In this document: positions 34,705 through 42,749 of the stretch, in pieces
Layout: each line of letters starts with the position of its first letter
Position numbering within the stretch: position 1 is the first letter of the stretch
NCBI GenBank assembly: GCA_015206945.1
Contig: JADEXV010000038.1
Span: 1 to 43,218, forward strand
Direction of reading: 5' to 3'
DNA from: Nostocales cyanobacterium LEGE 12452
GTDB taxonomy: Bacteria > Cyanobacteriota > Cyanobacteriia > Cyanobacteriales > Nostocaceae
DNA: 43,218 bases
Made by a program: the position numbers and the translations under genes
The notes under the pieces: model-generated
Seen by the model: only the letters and a program-made list of their open reading frames with translations
Databases searched by the model: none
What the model was told of the DNA's origin: nothing

Positions 34705-36600
34705 TTACAGCTTCGTCCCACACTCAGCACAGAAGTTGTGGGTAGGAGCATTTTTGGCATTGCAGTTGCTACAATACACTGGCTCGGCTGCTGCTTTTGG
34801 CGGTTGTTTCTGCAAGCCGACCATTTGAGCGTTGCTCTTACCAGGGGCTACCATTGGATAGCAGTTTTCGTCTCTGGTGACGTGGACATTTAAGATTACT
34901 GGGCCTTTGTGTGCTAGCATCTCGGCGATCGCATCTTTTAATTGACTGCGATCGCTGATTATCATGCCTTTAATGCCATAAGCTTTTCCCAACAACTCTA
35001 CGTCTGGCATCCCTATTTCCATGTCGGAGCATGAGTAACGCTCACCATAGAAGGCTTGCTGCCACTGGCGCACCATCCCTTGCCAGCCGTTGTTGAGAAT
35101 TATTGTCTTGACATTTATTCCATACTGTGAAATTGTTCCTAGTTCCTGTAAACACATTTGGAAACTAGCATCACCGCTGATACAGATGACTTCTTCATCA
35201 GGAAACGCCACTTTCGCGCCCATTGCCGCAGGTAAGCCAAAACCCATCGTTCCCAAACCAGCGCTAGAAATCCAGCGCCTTGGGCCATTCTTCAGGAATT
35301 GTGCTGCCCACATTTGATGTTGTCCGACATCTGTGGTGTAGAAAGCGTGAGGTGCTTGGCTATTGACTTCTACAATCACTTCTTGGGGTGAAATGCTGTC
35401 GAGATGATGCGGCACGATTAGAGGATACTCTTCGCGCCAACGGTTGACTAGATTCAGCCATTCTTGGTTTTGATTAGGTGTAGCCTTTACCCCTGTTTCT
35501 TTGCAGCGACGCAATAAGTCTACTAACACATTCCGCACATCGCCGACGATGGGCACTTCGGGAATGCGGTTTTTGCCGACTTCTGCGGGATCGATGTCGA
35601 TGTGAATTACTTTAGCGCGGGAGGCGAATTCGTCTAACTTGCCTGTAACGCGATCGTCAAATCTAGCGCCGACGCAAATCAGCAAGTCACAATCACTAAC
35701 GGCGAAGTTGGCGTAAGCGGTGCCGTGCATCCCCAACATTCCCAAAGCTAGGGGATGATGTTCGTCAAAGGCACCGATCCCCATTAAGGTTGTGGTGACG
35801 GGGATATCGAATAATTCAGCTAGTTGTTTGATTTCTTCATGGGCACCAGCTGCGATCGCACCACCACCCACATACAATAACGGACGGCGGCTTTCAGTAA
35901 TTAACTGGATGGCAGCATTAATCTGGCGGGGATTTCCCTTCACAGTGGGACGATAACCGCGTAACTTCACTGAACCTGGTTTGACAGGTACATAGTCAAA
36001 TTCTTCTAAAGCTACATCTTTGGGGACATCAATCAAAACTGGCCCCGGACGCCCAGTGCTAGCGATGTGGAATGCTTCGGCGACAATTCGCGCCATATCT
36101 TTGGGATCGCGCACTACATAAGAGTGCTTGACGATTGGGAGCGTAATCCCGTAAATATCGGTTTCTTGAAACGCATCTGTACCAATTGACGGACGTGCTA
36201 CCTGCCCCGTGACTACAATCATCGGGATTGAATCCATGTAGGCTGTGGCGATGCCTGTCACCAAGTTAGTTGCTCCTGGTCCCGAAGTACCAAAGCAGAC
36301 TCCTACTTTTCCTGTGGCACGGGCGTAACCATCAGCAGCGTGGGCTGCGCCTTGCTCGTGCCTCACGAGAATGTGCTTCATAGCACCAGTTGCTTCCACC
36401 TTATACAGGTCGTCGTAAATTGGTAGAATTGCCCCACCAGGATAACCAAAAATATAATCAACGCCGTGGCGATGAAGGCTGTCAAGCAGCGCAAAACCGC
36501 CAGATGCTCGTTTGGGCAAGGCTGGCGGGCTAGAGGCACGAGACTGTTTGTGATTCTCGGTTTGTGGGAGACTAATTTGGGAGAGCGATCGCACGGTCAA
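34705..36600 (-). CDS. ilvB: Acetolactate synthase large subunit with C-terminal zinc ribbon
   Basis: Catalyses the first common step of valine, leucine and isoleucine synthesis, a ThDP/FAD enzyme. The ThDP glutamate lies in [50 protein letters not shown] and the ThDP motif [12 protein letters not shown] to [13 protein letters not shown] are all present. At 631 residues it is longer than usual at the C-terminus: residues 610-627 form a CxxC...CxxC zinc ribbon ([20 protein letters not shown]). The start is a TTG at 36600 or a GTG at 36594; a stop lies just upstream. The regulatory subunit ilvN is not in the window. Confidence 0.94.
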
Positions 36601-39289: not shown

Positions 39290-39607
39290 TTATAATCTCA
39301 AATCGTCTAATTCTTGCCAGAGAGTATTGATAAAATCCTGAGTCTGTTTTAAATTCAGTTCTCCAAAAGCTTGCCATTCTTCAGGTGTAATTTTCTCATC
39401 GCTTTGAATCACTTCTTGTATCCAATAGGGTAAGTCAAATGGGTGGCGAATTAATTCGTAGGTTTTTTCCAAAGGAGTTTTGCCTAAACTTTCTGGATTA
39501 TATCTAGCAACCAAGCATAATTTTAACAACTTAGCTAAATTACTTTCAGGAGGGATTGAGAGTAAAAAAGCCATAGTTTGAGCTAACGTATTTTTGTTAA
39601 CTTCCAT
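39290..39607 (-). CDS. Small soluble protein of unknown function, next to the double-globin gene
   Basis: A 105-residue, mostly helical, acidic protein. It starts at the ATG at 39607, 58 bp after the stop of the globin fusion gene on the same strand, so the two are likely one operon. Segments MAFLLSIPPESNLAKLLKLCLVARYNPESLG and PFDLPYWIQEVIQSDEKITPEEWQAFGEL are well formed and look like a genuine folded protein. No family is recognised. A helper or regulatory role for the globin fusion is possible by context only. Confidence 0.7.
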   Translation of the reverse strand: MEVNKNTLAQTMAFLLSIPPESNLAKLLKLCLVARYNPESLGKTPLEKTYELIRHPFDLPYWIQEVIQSDEKITPEEWQAFGELNLKQTQDFINTLWQELDDLRL

Positions 39608-39665: not shown

Positions 39666-41507
39666 TTATGGATGTTTTGACCCATCAGGCATAATAGCAC
39701 CTTTGAGATAAGCTCCACGCAAATCGTAGTCATTAACATTAGCACCTTTGAGGTCAGCACCTGTTAAATAAGCATTTTTCATATCTGCACCACTAAGATT
39801 TGCATTGCTGAGATTTGCACCACTAAGATTCGTATCTCTTAAATCAGCACAAATCAGATTGGCATGGCTAAGGTTAGCACTACTAAGATTAGCGTAACTA
39901 AGTTTAGCAAAACCCAAGTTGGCATGACTCAGATTAGCACCAGTAAGATTCACACGAGCCAGCAAAGCATTTCCAAGGTTAGCATGATTAAGGTTGGCAT
40001 GATTCATATCAGATTTAGTTAAATTAGCTTCGCTTAAATCAGCTTCAGGAAGATTAATCCTAACTAATTTTGCTTGGGGTAAATCTAGATTATTTAAAGT
40101 AACTCCATCTTCGTTTAAATCTTGTAAAGCAATAATTCTTGCCGGACTAACTTTTACGCCATTAGCAGCATCAATGACACTCCAAGCTTGATATTGAAAT
40201 TCTTTTTTCCGATCGGGAATTTCTTTGATATATAGAATTAAAGCAGCGATGATACTAATAGGTTCAACCTCTGATAAAAGTCTAGATATAATTGAACTAT
40301 CAGGAGTAAGAATAACTAAGATAATTAAACTAGAAGCAATGGAAATAGCCACTAACCATGTTGGTGACTCCCAGAACCAATCAAGAAGTTTTTTGAAAAT
40401 ATTTTTAAAACTATTTTGGATGAGTTGTATTGGTTTTAATATCAGTCTAATTACTTTACTTAAATTACTTTGCTGAGGTATAGCTTTGACTGTCCTACCT
40501 CTTCTCCCTAGCTTGAGGGAGACAGCCTCACTGATCAACGGAGGAAATTCTGGTTGTTCTAGTTTTACAGCGACATCTATTCCTGCACCTTCTAACATTA
40601 ACGCAGAGATAGTTGTGTAAGTATCAACCCAAGCTTGTGCAACTTCGGGAGTCCAATCTTCTTGTAAATATTCTGCGAAAGTTTTTAGCAAAATATCTCC
40701 CACAATTGGATAATATTCTATAAGTGTGCCATAGCCTTTATGTCTAGCACCTAAATCTTTGAGAACTAAAACTAAAGCTTTGGGAGTACGTAAACTTTCT
40801 ACTAATAAGACGAGAGAATTAAATAGTTTTTTCTCTTGCTTATCCATATCAGTTTTACCAAACAAACCTTGAGTTTGGGGATAACTTTTAAAGAGATTTT
40901 CGTAAAACCTAGCAGCAAATTCTCCAGCATGAGGTTTAATTTTTTCAAAGCTAGTTTCGACGAGTTGAATTTGTGTAACTGTAGATAATTGAGGTGTTAC
41001 TTCTTTTGCTGAAAAAACTGACACTTGAGGCGGTGATTGGGATTTTTCTACATCTGGTTGTATACTTAACTGAGAAATATCTACTCCTGCACCTTCTAAC
41101 ATTAACCCAGAGATACTTGTGTAAGTATCAACCCAAGCTTGGGCGACTTCGGGAGTCCAATCTTCTTGTAAATACTCCGCAAAAGTTGCTAGTAAAATAT
41201 CGCCTACAAGGGGATAATAGTCTATAAGTGTGCCATAACCTTTATGTCTAGCACCTAAATCTTTAAGAACTACAGCTAAAGCTTCGGGAGTGCGTAAACC
41301 TTCTACTAATAAGACGAGAGAATTAAGTAGTTTTTTCTCTTGCTTATCCATATCAGTTTTACCAAACAAAGCTTGAGTTTGGGGATAAGTTTCAAAGAGA
41401 TTTTGGTAAAAACTAAAAACAAATTCTCTAGCACGAGGTTTGATTTTCTCAAAGCTAGTTTCAACGAGTTCAATGCGTAAATTTGAATAAGATGATGTCA
41501 TATTCAT
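39666..41507 (-). CDS. Double-globin, transmembrane, pentapeptide-repeat fusion protein
   Basis: A 613-residue protein with three parts. Residues 12-146 and 180-314 are two bacterial-type globin domains, offset by exactly 168 residues and nearly identical. Each keeps a B10 tyrosine (Tyr34, Tyr202), CD1 phenylalanine (Phe48, Phe216), a distal E7 glutamine candidate (Gln56, Gln224) and proximal histidine in GARHKGYG (His88, His256), so both should bind heme in the flavohemoglobin/Vgb style. Two membrane spans follow (about 384-400 and 414-428). Residues about 472-606 are pentapeptide repeats of the A(N/D)Lxx type, probably a right-handed beta helix. The role is unknown: NO or O2 sensing or detoxification at the membrane is an inference. 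Confidence 0.9.
   Translation of the reverse strand: MNMTSSYSNLRIELVETSFEKIKPRAREFVFSFYQNLFETYPQTQALFGKTDMDKQEKKLLNSLVLLVEGLRTPEALAVVLKDLGARHKGYGTLIDYYPLVGDILLATFAEYLQEDWTPEVAQAWVDTYTSISGLMLEGAGVDISQLSIQPDVEKSQSPPQVSVFSAKEVTPQLSTVTQIQLVETSFEKIKPHAGEFAARFYENLFKSYPQTQGLFGKTDMDKQEKKLFNSLVLLVESLRTPKALVLVLKDLGARHKGYGTLIEYYPIVGDILLKTFAEYLQEDWTPEVAQAWVDTYTTISALMLEGAGIDVAVKLEQPEFPPLISEAVSLKLGRRGRTVKAIPQQSNLSKVIRLILKPIQLIQNSFKNIFKKLLDWFWESPTWLVAISIASSLIILVILTPDSSIISRLLSEVEPISIIAALILYIKEIPDRKKEFQYQAWSVIDAANGVKVSPARIIALQDLNEDGVTLNNLDLPQAKLVRINLPEADLSEANLTKSDMNHANLNHANLGNALLARVNLTGANLSHANLGFAKLSYANLSSANLSHANLICADLRDTNLSGANLSNANLSGADMKNAYLTGADLKGANVNDYDLRGAYLKGAIMPDGSKHP
40560..41473. repeat. Tandem duplication of the globin coding segment
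   Basis: The DNA coding for globin 2 (about 40563-40970) and globin 1 (about 41067-41474) is very similar base by base, offset by 504 bp. Segments such as TTTTTCTCTTGCTTATCCAT are unchanged. This implies a recent duplication or gene conversion. Confidence 0.85.
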
Positions 41508-41857: not shown

Positions 41858-42265
41858 TTAGGATCTCTGAACGCTTGCTCTTGCCAATAAAACACCGATT
41901 TGGATGCCAATCATTCCTGCGATCGCACTGCCAACAAAATAAATTAACAGCATTGTAATGTCGCCCTTATCCAAAAAATTTCTTGATTCCAAGCCATAGG
42001 TTGAAAAAGTAGTATATGCACCGCAGAAACCTGTTGTTGTCATCAGGCGAAGTTCAGGCGAGATGATGCGAATATTCTCGACTGCTAAAGTCAAAATATA
42101 AGCAATCAATAAACAGCCAGTCACATTAATAAAGAATGTGCCGTAAAAGCCAAAATCTTTTCCAAAAATAGCTTTTGCAAATTCGGTTCCATAAAAACGA
42201 CTCAACGCTCCAAAAACTGCCCCGATCGCCACAGCTAGGGGATAACGTCCTTTCAAAAAATTCAT
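41858..42265 (-). CDS. crcB: Fluoride channel subunit, CrcB/FluC family
   Basis: A 135-residue four-span protein that exports fluoride. Signature blocks: GAVFGALSRFY, GTFFINVTGCLLI with the conserved Asn, and TGFCGAYTTFSTYG with the phenylalanine box and Ser/Thr track. It follows the other crcB by 94 bp on the same strand. Such pairs form antiparallel heterodimers, each chain fixed in one orientation. I found no fluoride riboswitch upstream. Firm family call. Confidence 0.94.
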   Translation of the reverse strand: MNFLKGRYPLAVAIGAVFGALSRFYGTEFAKAIFGKDFGFYGTFFINVTGCLLIAYILTLAVENIRIISPELRLMTTTGFCGAYTTFSTYGLESRNFLDKGDITMLLIYFVGSAIAGMIGIQIGVLLARASVQRS

Positions 42266-42359
42266 TGTTTTTTACCTAAAAAAATGTGCGTAGTTTTTTG
42301 TCAAGGTCTTTTCAAACTTGCTCTCAAGTGTATCCCAACCTTTTTATTACTTGAGCAAA

Positions 42360-42749
42360 TTACTTTACAAAAAGCTTGGCGATCGCTACTCCTAAAATCA
42401 CCGCTCCCAAACCTAGAACTGCACTCCCCGCCCAATAAAAGACTGTCGCAGTCTTTTGTTTGCTACGCCACAGGCTTAGAGTATCAAAGCCATAGGTTGA
42501 AAATGTGGTGTAAGAACCTAAAAATCCAGTCCTAATTAGTAAATCCAATTCTGATGGATAGCCTGTAATTCCTTTAGAAATCGTGAAAAAGAAACCCATC
42601 GCTAAACATCCAGTCAGATTAATGACAAATGTTCCATAGGGAAATTTTGTCCCTAATTTGGCTTTTGTCCATTCTGTTATATAGAACCGAGACAGCGCTC
42701 CAGGAACTGCACCTACCGCAATTGAGAGAACATTAGTTAAATCTGCCAC
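42360..42749 (-). CDS. crcB: Fluoride channel subunit, CrcB/FluC family, first of the pair
   Basis: 129 residues from the GTG at 42749, four spans. It keeps GAVPGALSRFY, YGTFVINLTGCLAMG and RTGFLGSYTTFSTYG. It is clearly paralogous to the neighbouring crcB but differs at the ends and in charge distribution, as expected for heterodimer partners with opposite topology. It is the upstream gene of the pair. Confidence 0.94.
   Translation of the reverse strand: MADLTNVLSIAVGAVPGALSRFYITEWTKAKLGTKFPYGTFVINLTGCLAMGFFFTISKGITGYPSELDLLIRTGFLGSYTTFSTYGFDTLSLWRSKQKTATVFYWAGSAVLGLGAVILGVAIAKLFVK

Follow-up and report, generated by a model that had tools for sequence, protein, structure and literature searches.

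The minus strand of the window (here the whole 43,218-nucleotide stretch of Nostocales cyanobacterium LEGE 12452 DNA under analysis) encodes at positions 39666..41507 a 613-residue protein in which heme globins, membrane spans and a pentapeptide-repeat tail form a single chain, and the locus raises the question of what such a chain could do. The answer tentatively preferred here, at a little below an even chance, is that it acts as a heme sensor or relay that is anchored in the membrane and faces the cytoplasm, with its β-helix and a neighbouring 105-residue protein serving as docking parts.

Architecture of the fusion protein

The open reading frame starts with ATG and its ends match 39666 and 41507 exactly. 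In the Pfam scan Globin (PF00042) is matched twice, with 115 bits over the entire protein against a cut-off of 22, and the pentapeptide-repeat family (PF00805) reaches 134 bits against 20.2. The frame, Pfam and hydropathy agree in placing globins, membrane spans and a pentapeptide tail in one ORF, as an earlier sequence-only reading had claimed. From the N-terminus, two F-type (HGbI-like) globins are followed by a membrane hairpin of two helices, then by a conserved segment next to the membrane and finally by about 27 pentapeptide repeats. The dN/dS ratio of 0.18 versus the Planktothrix gene is consistent with purifying selection on the fusion gene.

Globin copy 1 covers approximately residues 9-145 (41073..41483, minus strand) and copy 2 residues 177-313 (40569..40979, minus strand), according to phmmer matches to HGbI (3s1i; E 5.5e-24 and 6.2e-24, respectively) and conserved columns. 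The copies were earlier described as near-identical, which is too strong for two very similar domains that share 81% of their residues (116 of 153 alignment columns, or 76%, when the tails are included) and 376 of 424 DNA columns (89%). The pocket of copy 1 consists of Tyr34 (B10), Phe48 (CD1), Gln56 (E7), Leu60 and His88 (F8), and that of copy 2 of Tyr202, Phe216, Gln224, Leu228 and His256 at the same positions, so that the four residues named in the earlier reading are present in both; the leucines we take to be E11. In the alignments to Hell's Gate globin I, the Tyr of each copy falls on Tyr29 (B10) and the Gln on Gln50 (E7), numbered as in the available part of PMC11203436.

Conservation was followed in 103 distinct related globin domains (>30 bits and >110 positions) drawn from 66 loci, namely 54 of the 79 loci of a named-genome scan and 12 others, the window included. 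Phe CD1 is kept in all 103, and Tyr B10, Gln E7 and His F8 are kept in 102, 101 and 99 of them, respectively. The exceptions at F8 are L112 (Gln), L129 (Asp) and the second copies of L119 and L128; those at E7 are copy 1 of L102 and L125, and B10 is altered in copy 2 of L128. This near-complete retention supports the prediction, made already from the window alone, that both globins are heme-competent. Heme binding is probably not universal in the family, since L112 and L129, which lack His F8, and L125, which lacks Gln E7, are single-globin proteins. In a midpoint-rooted FastTree phylogeny, the last two globin copies are exclusive sisters in only 4 of 33 multi-globin proteins, and the copies group by lineage: 8 from the window and Planktothrix (support 0.985), 16 from Okeania (0.885) and 8 from Rhizonema and Scytonema (1.0). 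Independent duplication and gene conversion are both compatible with this pattern.

The nearest solved globins of both copies are HGbI (3s1i, 3ubc) and HGbRL (3wfw) of Methylacidiphilum infernorum, which are the best PDB sequence matches and F-type globins with the same Tyr B10 and Gln E7. Foldseek superposes the globin on HGbI (3s1i) over 126 columns at 1.7 A rmsd and 39% identity; with PF00042, the PDB matches and the Tyr B10/Phe CD1/Gln E7/His F8 set, this assigns the domains to the F-type globins. HGbI is a single domain with a chain of 139 residues and HGbRL is a globin fused to Roadblock, whereas the window globins are fused to a hairpin and pentapeptides; to our knowledge, neither of the two carries such elements. 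Interaction with lipids has been reported for HGb-I (PMC11203436, in its available part). Pfam finds a classic globin family, no signalling domain and C-terminal pentapeptides, which is not the composition of a globin-coupled sensor, although the near relative HGbRL has been called a putative globin-coupled sensor (PMC4476040, available part). The chain also lacks any Pfam FAD/NAD reductase domain of the flavohemoglobin kind, and the NCBIfam flavohemoprotein model NF009805 matches the globin part only (profile positions 5-134 of 399). In the same phylum, syNOS (PDB 9q05 and others) has a related globin, but fused to oxygenase and reductase domains; it is described as an NO dioxygenase and a Ca2+-sensitive enzyme in the available parts of PMC6104048 and PMC12922734.

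The membrane hairpin (40224..40358, minus strand) was placed by hydropathy, with TM1 at about residues 384-402 and TM2 at about 413-428. TM2 is weak in the window protein (hydropathy 1.62 versus a threshold of 1.6), and reaches 1.7-2.1 in the relatives scanned. Among 18 aligned two-globin proteins, the C-terminal flank of the hairpin has a charge of +1 or +2 in all 18, the loop ranges from -2 to +1 and the N-terminal flank from -3 to +2. The hydropathy supports the predicted membrane anchoring. Because there are two spans and the C-terminal flank is positive, the globins and the β-helix would lie on one side of the membrane, most likely in the cytoplasm by the positive-inside rule.

The conserved juxtamembrane segment (residues 429-475; 40083..40223, minus strand), defined by alignment and genome searches, also occurs in globin-free membrane pentapeptide proteins. 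The following repeats, about 27 in number (residues 471-606; 39690..40097, minus strand), are assigned to the pentapeptide-repeat family by Pfam, by repeat splitting and by Foldseek, whose top match for the modelled tail is the β-helical HetL (3du1); other pentapeptide proteins also match. HglK and other membrane pentapeptide proteins likewise have membrane spans followed by pentapeptide repeats. However, HglK is predicted to cross the membrane four times and contains 36 repeats, with no globin mentioned in the available part of PMC8145042, and the fusion has two hydrophobic spans and about 27 repeats.

An AF2 model of the fusion, built from 18 sequences, has a pLDDT of 71 and a whole-protein pTM of 0.35. 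It contains helical globin domains, helices across the hydrophobic segments and a C-terminal solenoid of repeating strands with pLDDT mostly above 90. Modelling had been suggested earlier as a check on the heme pockets; it supports the separate domains only, and because the pTM is only 0.35 the domain arrangement is not predicted.

Distribution, origin and the 105-residue partner

The sequence-only reading did not recognize this domain order. No globin-pentapeptide protein was found in the open-access literature searched (titles and starts of abstracts), so that within that literature the order appears new as a description; it is frequent in filamentous cyanobacteria, however, and not unique to the window. 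Genome scans gave one-, two- and three-globin genes. The named-genome scan returned 79 loci, the first 54 of which (L084-L137) have a globin or a strong match to the membrane-pentapeptide module. They comprise 17 one-globin, 26 two-globin and 4 three-globin genes and 7 modules whose ORF contains no globin. Some of these 7 are split or broken, and L096 and L105 from the one-globin group seem to be split as well; the three-globin L121 has a partial first globin. The other 25 loci (L138-L162) match the module at 44-85 bits and have no globin, and none was seen in 16 inspected loci with weaker matches (L063, L068-L079, L081-L083). Of the 217 family genomes, 29 have a module match above 100 bits, the criterion for the fusion lineage (by which the broken or remnant loci G072, G116, G139 and G081 count as positive), and 104 have one at E 0.001 or better; the corresponding figures for the 386 phylum genomes are 12 and 24. 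The two genome sets overlap with each other and with the named loci (L091 and G059, for instance, have the same contig layout), and the samples are therefore not independent.

Fusion hosts include Planktothrix, Microcoleus, Tychonema, Okeania, Anabaena, Cylindrospermum, Brasilonema, Scytonema, Rhizonema and Phormidium. In the Okeania loci L114, L122, L137, L130 and L121, either a single gene encodes three globins or the globin array is split. Divergent two-globin TM-pentapeptide genes were also seen in two metagenome-assembled genomes of Bacteroidota type, labelled Flavobacteriales or Arcticimaribacter (L126:4232-5974 and L128:246-2066). On visual inspection the genes around them do not resemble cyanobacterial ones, and the 105-residue gene is absent. 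The membrane-pentapeptide part is widespread without globins, a point that the earlier reading had missed, and since the module is so common on its own, globins were probably added in front of one that already existed. By protein sequence, Planktothrix has the genes most similar to that of the window (77-80% across the protein), ahead of the next full-length relatives at about 50-52%. A one-globin paralogue on another contig of LEGE 12452 (L001/L200) is 75% identical to the Brasilonema gene L087. That the window gene has its nearest relatives in Planktothrix while the paralogue of its own genome resembles Brasilonema suggests acquisition by horizontal transfer.

Also missed earlier was an adjoining 105-residue ORF (39290..39607, minus strand), 58 bp downstream of the fusion. 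Its AF2 model is all-helical (pLDDT 80.5), its dN/dS versus Planktothrix is 0.24, and 38 of the 41 distinct homologues listed have exactly 105 residues. No known family or fold could be assigned: the best Pfam match among 25 members scanned has E 0.012, NCBIfam gave no match for the window protein, PDB sequence-profile searches gave none at E up to 1, and the best Foldseek hit (E 3.9) is not significant.

The gene tracks the globin fusion across genomes. Full matches (>140 bits) are found in 36 of the 54 named loci, always on the strand of the module (36 of 36), upstream in 26 and downstream in 10 (Planktothrix, Okeania, Hydrocoleum). Split copies occur in L099, L111 and L112, and in L096, L124, L130 and L136 the gene stands beside a split or broken globin gene. 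The family genomes contain it in 21 of 217 cases (19 in the fusion lineage; G026 and G118 as fragments only) and the phylum genomes in 13 of 386, 12 of them with the fusion and the 13th being G420, where the contig ends inside a globin ORF directly beside it; the Fisher tests on such counts ignore kinship among the genomes. The association is not invariable. The gene is absent from 10 of the 29 fusion-lineage genomes, among which G020, G022, G075, G192 and G198 are examples with an open globin gene, and from named loci with both flanks that include L087, L103, L125, L126, L127, L128 and L129. It is also lacking beside the one-globin paralogue of LEGE 12452, and in L091 (G059) it lies 13 kb from the fusion.

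Redox and signalling neighbours

A role with gases, NO or reactive oxygen, as proposed earlier, would fit some of the gene neighbours, namely NOX5, a cyclase with a cNMP channel and, rarely, NO synthase (NOS), but the LEGE 12452 genome is without NOX5. At the 54 named loci, counting pieces, the neighbours include a His-phosphatase/EF-hand protein (HisPhos-EF) at 15, an EF-hand NADPH oxidase at 8, a cyclase at 6, an MscS-cNMP channel at 5, bestrophin at 4 and NOS at 1, the families being assigned by Pfam on representatives. Some of these matches are short: HisPhos-EF down to 42 aligned residues, the oxidase 53 in L106, the cyclase 43-79 in L097, L107 and L131, and bestrophin 81 in L119. In L101, the oxidase is on the opposite strand.

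The oxidase matches NADPH oxidase 5 (6sz5, E 9e-160; 5o0x, which we take to be csNOX5, E 2e-162) and is a neighbour of the fusion, not a homologue. NOX5 is encoded in 8 of the 217 family genomes (E 1e-20), in 6 of them on the same contig as the fusion at 0.5-13 kb. Within the fusion lineage, it is present in 6 of 29 genomes and missing from 23. HisPhos-EF occurs in 25 of the 217, 19 of them fusion-lineage. Its phosphatase end matches solved structures and its far end Pfam EF-hands; a protein of about 690 residues at L094:3065-5143 has a His-phosphatase domain, a middle part without an assigned family and C-terminal EF-hands. In G005, NOX5, the 105-residue gene, HisPhos-EF and the globin gene follow in this order on one strand within about 7 kb. 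The window contig carries no NOX5, and the LEGE 12452 genome matches neither NOX5 nor HisPhos-EF at E 1e-20; since most of the fusion lineage also lacks NOX5, both are optional partners. A search of the open-access literature for NADPH oxidase with cyanobacteria, EF-hand and globin found nothing.

A globin of the fusion type is also found at the C-terminus of two kinds of cyclase, which give a cyclase output and have no pentapeptide tail (L194-L198, L204). Five of the six genes (L194:2748-5378, L195:4388-7021, L196:2099-4756, L197:2274-4772, L204:3906-6584) are followed by an MscS-like gene; the sixth, L198:3-5186, encodes an AAA_16-GAF-cyclase-TPR protein. NOX5 lies within 3 kb of such a cyclase in two genomes, G039 and G041. 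L091/L203 (L091 and G059 sharing one contig), L108 and L119 have globin-free cyclase and MscS-cNMP genes in the vicinity of the fusion. The Pfam assignments cover L195, whose channel has a cNMP-binding domain, L203 and the representatives from L091 and L108; the other cyclase-globin/MscS pairs were assigned by similarity. Because the cyclase is either fused to the globin or a neighbour of the fusion, these arrangements suggest that in some species the globin feeds into an output by cyclic nucleotides.

NOS adjoins the fusion at two loci, L109 (5462-9043, cut by the contig end) and G019 (L199:7056-11531); the former matches EF-hand models and the latter does not. The globin of the G019 NOS is distant, scoring 37 bits to a two-sequence model versus 96-294 for fusion globins (partial domains aside). 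As a general partner, NOS was rejected: 19 of 20 NOS-sized globin ORFs (1430-1510 residues, among the matches listed) lie outside fusion genomes, that of G019 being the only one confirmed as NOS.

Candidate functions

The preferred model proposes that the fusion senses or relays NO, O2 or reactive oxygen at the membrane of filamentous cyanobacteria. The hairpin would hold the globins and the β-helix together on the cytoplasmic side, and the globins, judging from their HGbI-type pockets, would at the inner membrane face bind O2 and also react with either NO or reactive oxygen species. Their ligand or redox state could then be passed on through the β-helix and the 105-residue partner. The output or input may, in some species, be the Ca2+-regulated superoxide generator NOX5 encoded nearby and, in some, the nearby cyclase with its cNMP-gated MscS channel. 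We infer signalling here rather than plain scavenging, although the extra globin copies suit the capacity of a scavenger at least as well as a sensor.

An NO dioxygenase or scavenger is the strongest rival, a substantial possibility that still falls short of probable. The related syNOS globin reportedly works as an NO dioxygenase (PMC12922734, available part), and a tethered globin array could turn NO into nitrate or remove peroxide near its source. One to three globins per protein, the stand-alone globin ORFs beside some fusions (L088, L102, L108, L109, L133, L134) and the proximity of NOX5 or NOS in some species would all suit this. For its re-reduction such an array would depend on a reductase outside the protein (ferredoxin, FNR or the NOX5 dehydrogenase domain). 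The fusion protein has no reductase domain in Pfam or NCBIfam, however, nor does one appear nearby among those ORFs that were annotated in the window and at the Planktothrix loci. In addition, residue 138, which we take to be only near the usual flavohemoglobin catalytic Glu, is variable (K in 55 and E in 24 of the 103 domains).

A bolder scheme, which we regard as unlikely, would place the fusion and the 105-residue protein at the centre of a hitherto undescribed redox-signalling complex of bacteria, built around NOX5. In it, the membrane globins would be reduced by the FNR-type dehydrogenase domain that NOX5 (or NOS) carries, giving a split flavohemoglobin, and the globin state would gate the cyclase/MscS or phosphatase/EF-hand outputs. 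If true, Ca2+, superoxide or NO and cyclic nucleotides would be linked in cyanobacteria.

Storage or delivery of O2 at the membrane, for respiration or nitrogenase protection, is very unlikely. The O2-type pockets, the membrane anchor and the several fusion hosts that form heterocysts would fit it, but the fusion is also found in Planktothrix, Okeania, Microcoleus and Tychonema, which are not known to form any, and the O2 affinity of an HGbI-like globin would be too high for delivery. A heterocyst-specific role was likewise rejected as general, because the intact genes most closely related to that of the window are those of Planktothrix. Quite improbable, too, is a structural or septal role with the globins secondary, which the stand-alone TM-juxtamembrane-pentapeptide module of many cyanobacteria and the effect of the membrane pentapeptide protein HglK on septa (PMC8145042, available part) would favour, against the retention of heme residues in nearly all globin copies and the tracking of the globin-bearing form by the 105-residue gene.

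The locus adds a new chimeric globin architecture and a partner protein without a known fold. It also offers a genetic context for bacterial NOX5, which has solved structures (5o0x), and it makes a Ca2+/ROS/NO signalling unit at the membrane of filamentous cyanobacteria testable.

The surroundings of the gene contribute context only. Upstream of the fusion lies a tandem pair of CrcB genes of the fluoride channel family (41858..42265 and 42360..42749, minus strand, by Pfam and NCBIfam; 41858-42749 together). CrcB genes also stand beside the broken fusion copy of Nostoc mirabile (L127, apparently the same as G116) and, judged by visual inspection alone, close to the G019 fusion (L199:1107-1986). 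Farther away, at 34705-36600 of the window, the C-terminus of an acetolactate synthase large subunit matches a zinc ribbon with 25.0 bits, which is just the Pfam cut-off.
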